Source of the DNA: Bacteroidota bacterium
GTDB taxonomy: Bacteria; Bacteroidota; Ignavibacteria; UBA10030; UBA8401
DNA length: 60,515 nt
Direction of reading: 5' to 3'
Assembly (NCBI GenBank): GCA_008933835.1
Contig: WBUG01000012.1
Location: forward strand, 1-60,515
In this document: piece after piece, positions 31,400-39,946 of the stretch
Numbering within the stretch: the first letter of the stretch is position 1
How the letters are laid out: each line of letters starts with the position of its first letter
Notes under the pieces: model-generated
Databases searched by the model: none
The model's input: the letters and a program-made list of their open reading frames with translations, nothing else
Told to the model about the DNA's origin: nothing
Program-made: the position numbers and the translations under genes

Positions 31400-32863
31400 A
31401 TGAGCAAGACTGATGCATACGAAGCGGTCATCGGACTCGAGGTCCACGCCCAGCTGTCGACCGCCACGAAGATCTTCTGCGGCTGCTCCACCGCGTTCGG
31501 AGCGCCGCCGAACACCAATGTCTGCCCGGTCTGCCTCGGCATGCCGGGGAGCCTGCCGGTGCTGAACCGGCAGGTGGTCGAGTACGCCGTCCGTCTCGGC
31601 CTCGCCGTCGGCTGCCGCATCGCCCCCCGTTCGGTCTTCGCCCGCAAGAACTACTTCTATCCGGACCTTCCCAAAGGGTACCAGATCTCGCAGTACGAAG
31701 AGCCCATCTGCCTCGCCGGTCATGTGGACGTCGCCGGGGCGGACGGTTCCCCCCGCCGAATCGGTATCACCCGCATCCATATGGAAGAGGATGCCGGCAA
31801 GTCCATTCATGACGCCGGTGCCGGCACGCTGGTGGACGCGAACCGGTGCGGCACGCCGCTGCTCGAGATCGTGAGCGAACCGGACCTGCGCACCGCGCAG
31901 GAGGCGGTGCAGTACCTCGCGTTCCTCCGCCAGACGGTCCGCTACCTCGGCATCTGCGACGGCAACATGGAAGAGGGGAGCTTCCGGTGCGACGCGAACG
32001 TCTCCGTCCGCCGGAAAGGGGAGACGCGCCTCGGCACCAAGACCGAGGTGAAGAACATGAACTCCTTCAGCAGCGTGGAGCGCGCCATCGAACGGGAGAT
32101 CCGCCGGCAGATCGGCATCCTCGACGAGGGGGGCGCCGTGGTGCAGCAGACGCTACTGTGGGACGCCGAACGGGGCGAGGTGCATCCGATGCGGAGCAAG
32201 GAGGAGGCGCACGACTACCGTTACTTCCCCGACCCGGACCTCGCGCCGGTGCTCGTGAACGACGCCTGGGTGGACGAGGTGCGCCGCTCCCTGCCGGAGC
32301 TTCCCGCCGCCAAACACGCCCGGTTCGCCGCCGAGTACGGACTGCCGGAGTACGACGCCGGCGTCCTCACGCAGGACCGTTCCGTCGCCGAGTACTTCGA
32401 ACGGACCGTGCGCGCCCTCTCCGCGAAGGGGCGCGACGCCGCCAAGACGGCGAGCAACTGGGTGATGACCGACGTGCTCCGGTCGCTGAACGAACGTCAA
32501 TGCACGGCGGAGGAGTTCCCCGTGACCTCCGAACGTCTCGCCGCGATGCTCGACCTGCTGCTCGACGGTACCGTCAGCGGCACCATCGCGAAGGAGCTCT
32601 TCGCCGACATGCTCGTCTCTCCCGACGCTCCGAAGGTCATCGTGGAGCGGAAGGGCATGGCGCAGATCTCCGACACCGGCGCCATCGGCCGGGAGATCGA
32701 TGCGGTCCTGGCGCGGTTCCCCGCCGAGACCGCCCGCTTCCGCGCGGGCGAAACGAAGCTGATGGGATTCTTCGTGGGCGAGACCATGAAGGTGATGAAG
32801 GGGAAAGGGAATCCGAAGCTCATCAACGAACTCTTACGAACGAAACTGGAAGGCCGATCATGA
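31400..32863 (+). CDS. gatB: Aspartyl/glutamyl-tRNA amidotransferase subunit B
   Basis: tRNA-binding kinase subunit of the GatCAB complex, which amidates misacylated Glu-tRNA(Gln) and Asp-tRNA(Asn) so that cells lacking GlnRS or AsnRS can make these tRNAs. Conserved regions include [35 protein letters not shown] (zinc and entry region), and [20 protein letters not shown]. The C-terminal part carries the helical tail and YqeY-like domain. The length is 487 residues. gatA and gatC are not in the window. The gene overlaps tpiA by four bases and follows the toxin gene by four bases. Confidence 0.96.
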
Positions 32864-33609
32864 GACCCATCGTCATCGCCGGCAACTGGAAGATGAACAA
32901 CGACATCGCCCAGACCGCCGAGCTCATCAACGCACTGAAGGCGGCGAAGAAGACCTCCTCCGCCGCGGTCATCGTCTGTCCCCCCTTCACCTCGCTCCAG
33001 GCCGCCTCGCTTCTGCTGGCCGGAAGCGGCATCGCGCTCGGCGCGCAGGACGTGTCGCTCCACGACAGCGGCGCGTACACCGGCGAGGTGTCGCTGGCCA
33101 TGCTGAAGTCCGCCGGCTGCTCGTACGTCATCGTCGGACATTCGGAACGCCGGCAGTACCACGGCGAGACCGACGCCGTCATCAATCAGAAGGCGAAGAA
33201 GGTGCTCGCCGGCGGTCTCATCCCCATCGTCTGCATCGGCGAAACGCTGCAGGAGCGCGAACAGGGGGTGACCGCAACGGTGCTCACCACGCAGACCACC
33301 GGTGTCCTCGCCGGCATTCCGGCGGCCGACGTGGAGAAGCTCATCGTCGCCTACGAACCGGTCTGGGCCATCGGCACCGGCAAGACCGCGACGAAGGAAC
33401 AGGCCGAAGAGGCGCATCGGCTCATCCGCTCCGTCATCGCGAAGCTCTATTCGAGCGGGACGGCCGAGAAAGTGGTCATCCAGTACGGCGGCAGCGTGAA
33501 ACCGGAGAATGCCAAAGAACTGCTTACCCAGAAGAACATCGACGGCGCGCTGGTCGGCGGCGCCTGTCTGAAAGCGGATTCATTCTTGGGCATCATCAAC
33601 GCCGCATAA
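32860..33609 (+). CDS. tpiA: Triosephosphate isomerase
   Basis: Interconverts dihydroxyacetone phosphate and glyceraldehyde 3-phosphate in glycolysis. The 249-residue TIM barrel shows GNWKMN (Lys11 region), catalytic His in IVGHSERRQ, catalytic Glu in [14 protein letters not shown], and the phosphate-binding QYGGSVKP and GALVGGACL. The ATG lies inside the gatB stop (ATGA). A clear terminator follows 20 bases after the stop and ends the transcript. Confidence 0.97.
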
Positions 33610-33722: not shown

Positions 33723-33796
33723 AATGCTGTTTTTTGTCGCAAATTCCGTAAAATTTGGTCAAAAACGACACTTTTGCCATAATTCAGGGCATCTCT

Positions 33797-36379
33797 TTGG
33801 CACGCACGCTCTTTCGGTCTTTCACATACCTTCTGCTTTCGTTCCTCTGCGTCAACCCACTATTTTCTCAGCAGTTATTCCTCGAAAACGGTTCTCCGTC
33901 CCATCCCCAGGTGCTGGGGTACGCCTCTCAGACCCGGTCCGTCATCGACCTTTCCGGCGAATGGGAATTCTCCTTGGACGAAGGAGTGACCTGGGCCTCC
34001 GTCCGTATTCCGGCGGCGGCGCAGTACGAAGGGAAGATTGTCTACAAGCGGAAGTTTGCGGCGGACGAAGAGCTCATCGGCCGGAGCGCGTTCCGTTTCG
34101 TTTCCTACGGCATCAACCACACCGCCGATGTCTTCATCAACGACCTCTTCATCGGCCGGCATGCGGGTGGATACACGTCGTTCGAACTTCCGGTGCCGGA
34201 GAACGCGGTGCAGTCCGGCGGCGAGAACGTCATCCGCATCGTGACGGACAATTCGCTCGACCACCGCACCACGTTCCCGCTCCGGGCGCAGGTGAACGGC
34301 GTCCGGAACTACGGCGGACTGACGCGGGACCTCTTCCTCGTCGCGGTGCCGCGTGCCTCCATCGCCTCCGCCGGAGTGACGGTGGACGCCATCGAACCGA
34401 AGGGGGTCCGCCTGACGGTGTCGGCGGAGCTGACGGCGGACGGACGGCTCCGCGAACCGCTCAGCGGCAGGTCGCTCCAGCTCACCGTCTCGGTCGCCTC
34501 AGCGTCGACCGGCGCCCTGTTCGGGAAGCCGGTGACGGTCCCGGTGGACCCGCTCGCGGAAGGGAAGCAGACGGCGGAGGTGCCGGTCACCCTCTCCGGG
34601 CTGACGATGTGGAGTCCCGACACCCCGGAGCTCATCACCGTCACCCTCTCGCTCGCCGCCCTTGAAGGGAAGAAGGATTCGCTGCTGGACGAGACCGCGG
34701 TGACGACCGGCGTGCGGACGTTCACGAAGGACAAAGAGCAGCTGCTGCTCAACGGGGCGCCGGTGACGCTGCGCGGCGTCGTCTGGTTCGAGGATTCCGA
34801 GCGGCACGGCAGCGCGATGACGTATGAGGAGATGGAACGCGACGTCGCGCTCATCCGCAATCTCGGCGCCAACACCGTGCGCGCGGCGCTCAATCCGCCG
34901 CATCCCTTCTTCGTGCAGCTGTGCGACCGGTACGGCCTGTTCGTGCTCGAAGAGGTCCCGAACGACGGTATCCCGGCGGCCGTGGCGTCGTCCGAAGGAT
35001 ACCGGGAACAGATCGAAGAACGGCTGCGCGCCATGGTGCAGCGCGACCGGCACCGTCCCAGCGTCATCGCCTGGGGGCTGGGCTCCGGTTCCGCCGCGAC
35101 CGCGGACGGCGTGCCGCTGCTGAAGGCGCTGCACCGTACGGCCAAGGCGCTGGACGGACGGCTCACCTACTCCGTCAGCGGGGACGGGGAGCACCGCGGG
35201 GTGGACGCGGCGGACATCGCCGGCATCGACCTGAGCGGCGACGACACGAAGCGGTTCCGCTCCCGCCTCACCGAGTTCAAACGCATCTTCGCCGGAACGC
35301 CGGTGCTCGTGGCGGGCTACGGTCTGGCGGTGGAGAAGGGGAACCACAACGGGTACAGCGACCCGGTCTCCGAGGAGGCGCAGGCGCGTCATCTGCATCA
35401 GCGCATGGCGCTGCTGCGCGAACTGGGAGCGGCGGGCGGCATCATCCGCGCGTTCAACGACCACCGCAGCGACCGGCCGGTGATGCGGCTCGGACCCGCG
35501 TCTTCGGACCTCCACACCTCCGGCATCGTCGCGCTCGACCGGCAGAAGAAGACCGCCTACGACGTGATGCACTCGCTGTACCATGGCCAGAAGGTCTCCG
35601 CCCTCCCGATGGGCGTGCACGTTCCCCCCTCGCCGTACCTCTACGTCATCATCGGCCTGGCGCTGCTCGTGACGGCGGCCTGGCTCATCAACGGCAACCG
35701 CCGGTACCGCGAGAGCACCTGGCGCTCCGTCTTCAAATCGTACAATTTCTTCGCCGACATCCGGGACCAGTTCTCGCTGCCGCTCTTCCACACCACCGTC
35801 ACGGCGGTCATCATCGCCGTCACCATCGCGGTCACCGTCTCGAGCGTGCTCCACCACTACCGCACGGACGCCCTGGCGGACTACCTGCTCTCGTTCTTCC
35901 TTGCGGATGCGGTGAAGCGCCTCCTCATCGCCATGGCGTGGGACCCGGTGACGAGCATCCTCTACCTCTCCGGCGCGATGATGGCGTGGTTCTTCCTGCT
36001 GACCTTCCTCATCCAGGTCGGCGCACGCGTCGCCCGGACGAAGGTGCGGCTCTTCCATTCCTACTCCATCGCCGTCTGGACCGCGATGCCGTGGATCGCC
36101 TTCATCCCCGTCGGCATGATCCTCTACCGGGTGCTGCAGAGCGACGCGTACGTGCCGTGGATCGTCGGCCTCATCGGCATGATGTCCCTCTGGACCTTCT
36201 TCCGGATGCTGAAGGGGATCTCGGTCATCTACCATATGTACACCCCCAAGATGTACATGCTCGGCCTCACCGCCGTGGTGGTGCTCCTCGGCGGCGGCTA
36301 CCTGTACGCGGACGCCGTGCTGTCGGTGACCGCCTACGCCGACCTGTTCTTCTCTTCCGTCCTTCCGTTCGCCCACTGA
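33797..36379 (+). CDS. Membrane-anchored GH2-fold pseudoenzyme
   Basis: An 860-residue protein from a TTG start with AGGG seven bases upstream. The start is chosen because it gives a good signal peptide (ARTLFRSFTYLLLSFLCVN then PLFSQQ). The exported part has GH2 sugar-binding, immunoglobulin-like and TIM-barrel domains (about 27-600). At the acid/base site the family pattern W-x-x-x-N-E reads WGLGSG (426-431): Asn to Ser430, Glu to Gly431. At the nucleophile site T-E-Y-G reads AGYG (506-509): Glu to Gly507. Six hydrophobic helices follow (about 614-838), resembling a Yip1-like membrane domain. It should bind a glycan but not cleave it by the normal mechanism. Confidence 0.8.
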   Translation: MARTLFRSFTYLLLSFLCVNPLFSQQLFLENGSPSHPQVLGYASQTRSVIDLSGEWEFSLDEGVTWASVRIPAAAQYEGKIVYKRKFAADEELIGRSAFRFVSYGINHTADVFINDLFIGRHAGGYTSFELPVPENAVQSGGENVIRIVTDNSLDHRTTFPLRAQVNGVRNYGGLTRDLFLVAVPRASIASAGVTVDAIEPKGVRLTVSAELTADGRLREPLSGRSLQLTVSVASASTGALFGKPVTVPVDPLAEGKQTAEVPVTLSGLTMWSPDTPELITVTLSLAALEGKKDSLLDETAVTTGVRTFTKDKEQLLLNGAPVTLRGVVWFEDSERHGSAMTYEEMERDVALIRNLGANTVRAALNPPHPFFVQLCDRYGLFVLEEVPNDGIPAAVASSEGYREQIEERLRAMVQRDRHRPSVIAWGLGSGSAATADGVPLLKALHRTAKALDGRLTYSVSGDGEHRGVDAADIAGIDLSGDDTKRFRSRLTEFKRIFAGTPVLVAGYGLAVEKGNHNGYSDPVSEEAQARHLHQRMALLRELGAAGGIIRAFNDHRSDRPVMRLGPASSDLHTSGIVALDRQKKTAYDVMHSLYHGQKVSALPMGVHVPPSPYLYVIIGLALLVTAAWLINGNRRYRESTWRSVFKSYNFFADIRDQFSLPLFHTTVTAVIIAVTIAVTVSSVLHHYRTDALADYLLSFFLADAVKRLLIAMAWDPVTSILYLSGAMMAWFFLLTFLIQVGARVARTKVRLFHSYSIAVWTAMPWIAFIPVGMILYRVLQSDAYVPWIVGLIGMMSLWTFFRMLKGISVIYHMYTPKMYMLGLTAVVVLLGGGYLYADAVLSVTAYADLFFSSVLPFAH

Positions 36380-36397
36380 CCCGGACCGCCGCATCGC

Positions 36398-39300
36398 ATG
36401 TATCTCTCCAAACTGGAAATATTCGGCTTCAAGTCCTTCGCCAACAAGGTGGGGCTCTCGTTCGACATCGGCCTCACCGCCATCGTGGGACCGAACGGCT
36501 GCGGCAAGACGAACGTGGTGGACGCCATCCGCTGGGCGCTGGGCGAGCAGAAGCCGAGCCGGCTCCGTTCGGACAAGATGGAGGACGTCATCTTCAACGG
36601 CACCAAGAACCGCAAGCCGCTCGGCCTCGCGGAGGTGTCGCTCACCATCGAGAACACGAAAGGAATCCTCCCCTCCGAGTACAAGGAGGTGACCATCACC
36701 CGCCGCGTGTACCGCTCCGGCGAGAGCGAGTACTTCCTCAACAAGACCCTCTGCCGCCTGAAGGACATCAAGGACCTCTTCATGGACACCGGCATGGGGA
36801 GCGACGCGTACTCCGTGATCGAACTGAAGATGATCGAGACCATCCTCAGCGACAAAGCGGACGAACGGCGCCGGCTGTTCGAGGAGGCGGCGGGCGTGAC
36901 GAAGTACAAGGTGCGGCGGAAGGAGACCTTCACGAAGCTGGACCACGTGCAGCAGGACCTGAACCGGGTGAACGACATCGTGAAGGAGGTGCAGAAGGCG
37001 GTCAACTCGCTCGAGCGGCAGGCGCACAAGGCCGAACAGTTCAACGCGCTGTCGGCGGCGCTGAAGGAGAAGGAAGTGCATCTGCTGGAGCGGGAGTACG
37101 CCGAGGTCCTCGGCTCCATCGGTCCGCTCCGCGAGAAGCTCACCACCGCGGTGGACGAGAAGCAGAAGATCAGCGACGAGCTCTCCGCGGAGGAGGGGCT
37201 GCTCGACACGCTGCGGGGCGAACTGGAGGAGCTCGAAGGACGCCTGAACGACGTGCAGACCGAGCTCAACGAGCACCAGCAGCGCATCAACCTTGTGCAG
37301 CAGGCGCGGGTGAAGGCCTCCGAGCGCACCATCTCGCTGAACGAGGCCATCGAACGGTACGAGCGGGAGAAGCAGGAGCTGCAGGAGCAGATGGCCGAGC
37401 TCGAACGGCGGGCGGAGGAGCTCGCCGCCGTCATCGAACGGGCCCACGCCGAGTCCGGCGCCGCGGCCGCGCACTACGCCGCGAAGAAGGAGGAGCTGGA
37501 CGCCTTCACGGCGCAGGTGGACGAGAAGAAGGCCGAAGTGAAGGCGAAGCAGGACGCCGTCATCGCACTGCTCCACGAGCTCTCCACCAAACGGAACGAA
37601 TACGAACGCATCAAGGCGCGGCTGGAGAACATCAACGGACGGCTCGAGTACTCCGGCGAGGAGAACGCCGTCTACGCGCAGGACATCGGGAAGAACACCG
37701 AGGCCGTGGCCGGTCTCACCGCGCAGGACCGCGAGCTCCGCCGCCGCTTCGCCGAAGCCGAGCTGAAGGCGCAGGACGCCGAGCGCCGGCGTGCGGAACT
37801 CCGGCAGGAGATCGAAGGGCTGAAGAACCGCGCGTTCGAGCTCCGCTCCTCCGCCGAACGGAAGCGCTCCCGGCTCGAGTTCCTGCAGGGGCTCGTGGAG
37901 AGCCATGAAGGCTTCTCCGAAGGGGCGAAGTACCTGCTCTCCGACGGCAGCGGCGCCGCGATGGTGCTCACCACCGTGGCGGACGCCTTCGCCAGCACGG
38001 CCGAACACCGTATCGCCGTCGAGGCGGCGCTCGGCGAGTTCGCCGGATGTCTGGTGGTCGCCACCATCGACGACGCGCACCGGGCGGTGGAGATCCTCCG
38101 CGAACAGGGGAAGGGACGCGCCACGTTCATCTGTCTCGAATCGGTCCCCGGCGCTCCGCGCGCGGCCGGCCGTTCCGGTCCGGGGGTCGTCGCCTGGGCG
38201 TCCGATGTGGTGACGTGCGACGAACGGTACCGCCGGCTGCGCGACTTCCTCTTCGCCGACACCGCGCTGGTGAGCGACGTGAAGAGCGCCGCCGCCCTGG
38301 TGCGGAAGGACCCGTCGCTGCGCTGCGTCACGCTCGACGGCGAACTGGTCACCGGGTCCGGCATCCTGCGGGGGGGGAGCCTGCGCACGGAGGACGGCGG
38401 GATGATCGGCAAGAAGGCGCAGATCGAGGAGCTCGCGGCCGAACTGCGGTCGCTGGAGGAGGAACAGGAGAGCGTCCGGAAGGGGACCGCGGACGCCGAA
38501 GCGGCCCTCGCCGCGGCGGGGTCGAAGGAGCTGGCGGACGAGGTGAAGCGCATCGAACAGCAGATGACCGCGGTCGAGATGCGCATCGCGCAGACCGAGT
38601 ACGAGAAGAAGCGGATGCTGGAGAACGTCGAGCGCAACGAGGCGGAGAACCGCCGCCTGCGCGAGGAGGCCGACGGCCTGACGAACGACCTCGCCGCGCT
38701 CACCCCCGCCATCGGGGAACTGGAACGGCGGAAGTCGCTGGCGGAGCAGCAGTCCGGCGCCACCGCGAGCGAGCTGGAGACGATGGAAGTGATGTGGAAC
38801 GAGTTCTCGAAGGTGGCCGCCGACGCGCAGCTCGAGATGATGCGGCTCGAGAACGAGGAGAAGAACGCCGCGCGGGAGCGCGAGTACACCACCGCCACCG
38901 TCGCGAACCTGCGGAACGCCGGGGTCCAGCGCGACGCGGACATCGGCGGCGCCCGCGGCGAGATCGCGCGCCTCGAAGGGGAGCTCGTCACCAACGCCTT
39001 CGAGCTCGAGGGGCTCGACGCCGGCCTGAAGGAGATCGTGGAGCGCAAGCGCGTGGCCCAGAGCGACTTCAACCGCACCCGGAACCGTGCGCACGACATC
39101 GAACTGAAGCTGAAGGACGCCCGCCGGCTGCACGACACCTCGCTCTCCCGCTCGCACGAACTGGAACTGCGCATCTCGGAGCTGACGATGAAGGCGCAGA
39201 ACCTCGTAGCGCGCGCGAAGGACGAACTGGACTTCACGCTCGAGCTCAGGGAGTTCCCCGCCGAAGAGCCGTTCGCCATCGAAGAACTGCGCGACGAGGT

Positions 39301-39946
39301 GAAGGGGATGAAGGAGAAGATCCGCTCCCTCGGCGCGGTGAACTTCGCCGCGTTCGACGAGTACAAGACGGAGAGCGAACGGCTCACGTTCATCACCGGA
39401 CAGCGGGACGACCTCATCGAGTCCGAGAAGACCCTGCTGCAGACCATCGAAGAGATCAACGCCACGGCGCAGCGCGAGTTCCTCTCCACCTTCGAGAAGA
39501 TCCGCGAGAACTTCATCGCCACGTTCAAGGGACTGTTCGACGAGGGGGACGAGTGCGACCTGCAGCTGGAGAAGGACGCCGACCCGCTCGAGGCGCGCAT
39601 CGAGATCACCGCGAAACCGCGCGGCAAGCGGCCGACCTCCATCGACCTGCTCTCCGGCGGCGAGAAGACCCTCACCGCCATCGCCCTGCTCTTCGCCATC
39701 TACCTGGTGAAGCCCTCGCCGTTCTGCATCCTGGACGAGGTGGACGCGCCGCTGGACGATTCCAACATCGACCGGTTCGCGCGCATCATCCGGAAGTTCA
39801 GCGACAACACCCAGTTTATCATCGTCACGCACAACAAGCGCACGATGGAAGCGGCGAACGCCATGTACGGCGTGACGATGGAGGAGCAGGGGGTCTCCAA
39901 GCTCGTGTCGGTGCGGTTCAATCAGAACGCGGTGGCGACGAATTGA
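36398..39946 (+). CDS. smc: Chromosome segregation protein SMC
   Basis: ATPase of the condensin-like SMC-ScpAB complex that organises and separates the chromosome. The 1182-residue protein has Walker A GPNGCGKT (31-38), long coiled coils (about 165-495 and 690-1020) flanking a hinge domain (about 503-680, SHEGFSEGAKYLL onward), and the C-terminal head with the signature LSGGEKTL (1085-1092) and Walker B ILDEVDAPLDDSN. All positions needed for ATP hydrolysis look intact. It starts 18 bases after the GH2-like gene, and its TGA overlaps the TTG of the following phosphatase gene. Confidence 0.97.
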   Translation: MYLSKLEIFGFKSFANKVGLSFDIGLTAIVGPNGCGKTNVVDAIRWALGEQKPSRLRSDKMEDVIFNGTKNRKPLGLAEVSLTIENTKGILPSEYKEVTITRRVYRSGESEYFLNKTLCRLKDIKDLFMDTGMGSDAYSVIELKMIETILSDKADERRRLFEEAAGVTKYKVRRKETFTKLDHVQQDLNRVNDIVKEVQKAVNSLERQAHKAEQFNALSAALKEKEVHLLEREYAEVLGSIGPLREKLTTAVDEKQKISDELSAEEGLLDTLRGELEELEGRLNDVQTELNEHQQRINLVQQARVKASERTISLNEAIERYEREKQELQEQMAELERRAEELAAVIERAHAESGAAAAHYAAKKEELDAFTAQVDEKKAEVKAKQDAVIALLHELSTKRNEYERIKARLENINGRLEYSGEENAVYAQDIGKNTEAVAGLTAQDRELRRRFAEAELKAQDAERRRAELRQEIEGLKNRAFELRSSAERKRSRLEFLQGLVESHEGFSEGAKYLLSDGSGAAMVLTTVADAFASTAEHRIAVEAALGEFAGCLVVATIDDAHRAVEILREQGKGRATFICLESVPGAPRAAGRSGPGVVAWASDVVTCDERYRRLRDFLFADTALVSDVKSAAALVRKDPSLRCVTLDGELVTGSGILRGGSLRTEDGGMIGKKAQIEELAAELRSLEEEQESVRKGTADAEAALAAAGSKELADEVKRIEQQMTAVEMRIAQTEYEKKRMLENVERNEAENRRLREEADGLTNDLAALTPAIGELERRKSLAEQQSGATASELETMEVMWNEFSKVAADAQLEMMRLENEEKNAAREREYTTATVANLRNAGVQRDADIGGARGEIARLEGELVTNAFELEGLDAGLKEIVERKRVAQSDFNRTRNRAHDIELKLKDARRLHDTSLSRSHELELRISELTMKAQNLVARAKDELDFTLELREFPAEEPFAIEELRDEVKGMKEKIRSLGAVNFAAFDEYKTESERLTFITGQRDDLIESEKTLLQTIEEINATAQREFLSTFEKIRENFIATFKGLFDEGDECDLQLEKDADPLEARIEITAKPRGKRPTSIDLLSGGEKTLTAIALLFAIYLVKPSPFCILDEVDAPLDDSNIDRFARIIRKFSDNTQFIIVTHNKRTMEAANAMYGVTMEEQGVSKLVSVRFNQNAVATN

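Follow-up and report, generated by a model that had tools for sequence, protein, structure and literature searches.

A GH2-fold protein lacking both catalytic glutamates and bearing a Yip1-like membrane domain is encoded upstream of smc in an Ignavibacteria contig

The window, by which we mean the whole 60,515-nucleotide stretch of contig WBUG01000012.1 (Bacteroidota; Ignavibacteria) analysed here, carries on its forward strand a gene (33797..36379, 860 amino acids, TTG start) for an exported protein with the fold of glycoside hydrolase family 2 (GH2), in which both catalytic glutamates are replaced and a Yip1-like membrane domain follows at the C-terminus. We give about an even chance to the best overall explanation, namely that a Yip1-like core carries a GH2 pseudoenzyme as an ectodomain for periplasmic binding or scaffolding. 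That the protein belongs to GH2 by fold and sequence family is evident from its domain profiles (Pfam Glyco_hydro_2_C, E 1.6e-26; Glyco_hydro_2_N, 1.4e-7; both pass their cut-offs) and from its AlphaFold model (pLDDT 91.1, pTM 0.87, built with 55 sequences), which Foldseek matched to GH2 beta-glucuronidases at E 7e-42 with a TM of at most 0.84 on the target. None of the NCBIfam enzyme models reached its cut-off for this protein, the best scoring 139.6 of 900 bits.

All features of the protein lie on the forward strand. A predicted signal sequence (residues 1-25, 33797..33871) forms a hydrophobic helix (2-23) ahead of the GH2 part in the model, and the position of this hydrophobic segment is conserved. 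There follow the N-terminal jelly-roll (about residues 45-195, 33929..34381, matched by Glyco_hydro_2_N, limits from the model), the Ig-like domain (about 196-305, 34382..34711; PF00703 in 53/55 members, weak in the window copy) and the TIM barrel (about 306-598, 34712..35590; PF02836 in 55/55 members). C-terminal of the barrel, the model places the long hydrophobic helices 615-633, 663-690, 717-745, 752-779, 783-812 and 816-842, the six that make up the membrane domain (615-860, 35639..36376).

Alignment by phmmer to beta-glucuronidases of known structure covered residues 64-595. It set Gly431 (35087..35089) on the acid/base glutamate (SVIIWSVGNE in the enzyme, SVIAWGLGSG here) and Gly507 (35315..35317) on the nucleophile (VIVTEFG and VLVAGYG, respectively). 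An active retaining GH2 enzyme has a glutamate at each of these two places, where the window protein has glycine. In GH2 paralogues of related genomes, the acid/base glutamate was present in all 15 compared and the nucleophile was kept in every one alignable at the second site. The loss of both glutamates proposed in the first-pass annotation is therefore borne out; both changes are present in the sequence, well beyond chance. The protein shares the jelly-roll, Ig-like and TIM-barrel fold and the generic structural residues of GH2 beta-glucuronidases and beta-galactosidases (PDB 5uj6, 6ncw, 6ncy), but differs in lacking the two glutamates and in the added membrane domain. Moreover, the NRK of the glucuronidase type (6ncy) aligns to HTS in the window protein.

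The gene is widespread. An orthologue was found in 59 of 60 near relatives of the window genome and in 271 of 294 sampled genomes of its class, nearly always as a single full-length copy. Phylum-wide, 84 of 296 genomes gave a match at E <= 1e-60, these being nearly all the genomes of the window's class together with some from other classes. The loss of catalysis is widespread and old: among 139 non-redundant family members neither glutamate was found in 93, exactly one in 45 and both in a single member. At the acid/base position the residues counted were G (53), E (24), S (19) and D (11), among others; at the nucleophile position they were S (28), E (23), R (22), G (20) and K (15), again among others. 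A FastTree phylogeny of 100 rows requires no fewer than 11 switches between Glu and non-Glu at the acid/base site and 13 at the nucleophile site, counts that carry no direction. Across the 139 members the two sites have drifted separately.

The sole member with both glutamates (locus L104) comes from Candidatus Kryptonia, and smc adjoins the gene there as well. Five more genomes of its family-level group (71-87% identity), which we label Kryptonia-like because they group with L104, carry GNE and (T/S)EYG in the same architecture, so that both glutamates are retained in 6/6 genomes of this clade. An intact clade of this architecture points to descent from an enzyme. If the Glu-Glu paralogues are taken as the outgroup, it is simplest to assume that the ancestor was an enzyme already joined to its membrane domain and that catalysis was lost several times later, through different substitutions. 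The first-pass annotation had held that intact homologues of the same architecture would signify a recent mutation; such homologues do exist, in one clade, but they indicate an enzymatic ancestor and not a recent change. Its view that the dead hydrolase had gained a membrane domain finds no support, since the intact clade has that domain and one genus keeps the membrane part alone; on the simplest reading there would have been no such gain after catalytic loss in the window lineage. The intact clade and the dead members together offer a natural before-and-after series for the evolution of pseudoenzymes. An annotation or assembly artefact, a frameshift or an active enzyme only recently mutated is hardly credible as an explanation, given that the frame is intact over its full length in independent genomes from many families and that losses are common to deep clades.

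The ectodomain is in use and not decaying, as its constraint is similar to that of the membrane part (mean entropy 2.35-2.89 bits for the GH2 parts and 2.41 bits for the membrane part). Positions conserved at 85% or more in a diverse subset are mostly generic GH2 structural residues common to the paralogues, among them W56, N115, N144, G174, W272, P277, N319, R362, D473 and D555; the GH2 framework has been retained. Within the barrel, the entropy of the two catalytic columns falls at the 54th and 79th percentile. Right behind the dead nucleophile lies a family-specific motif, NGYSDP (residues 518-523, 35348..35365), whose G519 is invariant in the diverse subset and which also occurs in the intact clade.

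This motif, fixed beside the pocket, could be taken together with the constraint on the ectodomain and the 45 members with exactly one glutamate to mean that the protein is still an enzyme, the barrel hydrolysing or transglycosylating via another residue or substrate assistance and the changes marking a new mechanism. We find this very doubtful, since the catalytic positions follow no pattern (G, S, K, R, A, Q, D, N and others) and no new acid has become fixed. A search by conservation found no fixed substitute acid in the barrel, whose best conserved acids (D349, D473, D555) are generic to GH2; the nearby alternative acid that had been named as grounds for doubting the loss of catalysis did not appear in this search. 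We know of no retaining mechanism that could work with Lys or Arg in place of the nucleophile, and residual catalysis is therefore unlikely in members with these residues, although some residual or altered activity could persist in the one-glutamate lineages.

The likeness of the membrane part to Yip1, raised at the outset, was supported: PF04893 matched 22 of 33 membrane parts at E<0.01, and while the window copy scored 21.6, under the cut-off of 28.6, a stand-alone relative passed it with 33.3. DUF4271 (PF14093) was considered as an identity for the membrane part and rejected, with one relative at 16.7 of 29.7 bits and 1/33 members at E 0.0027. A fold search of the PDB with the confident model of the membrane part gave nothing above chance; its best VIA-align rows were GPCRs at Z <6, which mean only a helical bundle. 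The family is set apart from Yip1 proteins, including the prokaryotic 'YIP1 family', by the fusion to a GH2 ectodomain and by the YNFFADIRDQ loop. This loop follows the first membrane helix (residues 634-662, 35696..35782; RRxRExxxRxxxxxYNFFADIRDQ) and shows the strongest conservation in the whole protein, at 1.31 bits vs 2.25-2.95 in other segments. It should be cytoplasmic, judging from the exported ectodomain and the positive-inside pattern, the topology being read only from the model and the charge distribution.

Seven genomes, all of genus g63 in family f15, encode the membrane part alone, without the GH2 domain, and smc lies directly downstream in 7/7. Four other genomes of f15 (including G258) have smc and no detectable membrane part. 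Weak hits to the membrane domain in three genomes of other classes (proteins of about 530-580 amino acids) had no supporting Pfam match. The stand-alone copies, the linkage to smc and the conserved loop argue for the membrane part as the core of the protein, with the GH2 part a former enzyme put to new use. The product would accordingly be a protein of the inner membrane, built around a conserved core, the six-helix, Yip1-like domain with its almost invariant loop on the cytoplasmic side; its periplasmic ectodomain would derive from a GH2 exo-glycosidase, retained as a pseudoenzyme once catalysis was lost. We infer that, much as in Klotho or rBAT/4F2hc, this ectodomain has a non-catalytic role in ligand binding, folding or scaffolding, and that it may pass a signal to, or recruit something at, the cytoplasmic loop, where output or docking would take place.

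GH2 enzymes often form oligomers, and the ectodomain might instead be a passive folding or oligomerisation module that binds no sugar, on a membrane part that works as a transporter or channel. Conservation of structural and not catalytic residues would fit such a role, as would the loss of the ectodomain from one genus that keeps the membrane part. Prokaryotic Yip1 members have no known function, and a review proposes them as possible transporters or receptors (PMC6682643). We nevertheless regard a passive module as rather unlikely, since conservation peaks in the cytoplasmic loop and not in a transmembrane pore lining, and no transporter fold was matched, a missing match not being evidence of a new fold.

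Directly downstream of the family gene, 18 bp past its stop, lies smc (36398..39946, forward strand, 1182 amino acids), which encodes the chromosome-packing protein SMC, and upstream is tpiA (32860..33609, forward strand, 249 amino acids), a less widely conserved neighbour. Among the 127 loci with sufficient downstream sequence, smc followed directly in 104 (median gap 8 bp; 15 loci with a 1-bp overlap of stop and start); tpiA was upstream in 64 of 121. The link to smc persists in loci of other classes where the remaining neighbours are absent, and the neighbour order is retained where the GH2 part has been deleted. The main exception is a group within the window's class, some of it Kapaibacterium, in which several members carry hrcA-grpE-dnaJ downstream (directly so, in place of smc, at loci L143, L151, L152, L183, L188 and L193). 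The link, which the first-pass annotation had passed over, is operon-like, old and strong, but not absolute. An apparent co-loss of the family gene with smc was discarded, as the two genomes lacking both (G208, G421) are equally explained by a missing contig, the genes being normally adjacent.

From the tight gene link one may tentatively propose SMC, or some process timed with it, as the partner on the cytoplasmic side, and the gene order locked with smc hints at a connection between cell envelope and chromosome. In its direct form, the protein would be a membrane anchor or sensor for SMC, with residues 634-662 binding SMC or its loader and coupling the state of the envelope to chromosome organisation. 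The frequency of smc as the downstream neighbour, in other classes too and well above that of tpiA upstream, speaks for such a role, as does an order that survives deletion of the GH2 part. We hold it to be improbable, however: adjacency is not interaction, the gene lies at a different place in one large clade, and the four f15 genomes that have kept smc without the membrane part show that SMC does not need it. Adjacency can also reflect operon inertia, which might be the whole reason for the link. The fullest version, in which the dead ectodomain senses or anchors to envelope glycans while the almost invariant loop engages SMC/condensin, and envelope state is thereby coupled to chromosome organisation in a large branch of Bacteroidota, is a long shot. 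The smc link and the loop offer a direct way towards a membrane partner of chromosome organisation, and towards what would be the first function assigned to a bacterial Yip1-like domain.

Returning to the favoured reading of a pseudoenzyme ectodomain on a Yip1-like core, there are parallels among other glycosidase folds. Klotho and beta-Klotho are GH1-like pseudo-glycosidase receptors, and rBAT and 4F2hc are GH13-like partners of transporters. They likewise have a glycosidase-fold ectodomain that is tethered to the membrane, lacks the full catalytic machinery and has been taken over for binding or scaffolding; but they belong to other GH families and organisms and have a single transmembrane helix, so that the likeness is functional and we claim no homology. 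A literature search found no paper on this family, on inactive GH2 proteins with membrane helices or on the family's link to smc. The family would represent the conversion of a glycosidase fold to a non-catalytic membrane ectodomain, several times, across a whole bacterial branch. Automatic annotation would probably list every copy among the GH2 sugar enzymes, which would inflate the predicted carbohydrate use of Ignavibacteria and their relatives.

Lastly, several observations were made on individual loci. Very divergent copies (22% identity) occupy the same tpiA-smc neighbourhood in two relatives with small genomes of 1.7 Mb (L077, L078). One contig filed as Armatimonadetes (L108) carries a family gene close to that of the Chlorobiota-labelled L109, probably through a binning or naming error. 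The reading frame is broken within the gene at L053 (G058:C122) and L210 (G100:C1), by either sequencing error or real decay; a 2016-amino-acid frame at L053 that suggested a fusion of the gene to smc was dismissed because of this break, the membrane part sitting in another frame. In the window, a 1777-codon open frame runs antisense to the family gene and smc (34499-39832, reverse strand) and is most likely a shadow frame of high G+C content. The TTG start of the window gene aligns with the TTG found in relatives of the same family. Usable ATG starts are rare for the gene within the window's order, where TTG is the usual candidate (window 33755-33799; L002-L009, L020, L028, L033, L038); at four of these loci (L020, L028, L033, L038) the 45 codons ahead of the signal-sequence core contain neither ATG nor GTG nor TTG. 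A weak or non-standard start, and hence low expression, is possible in this order; members in other orders mostly start with ATG.
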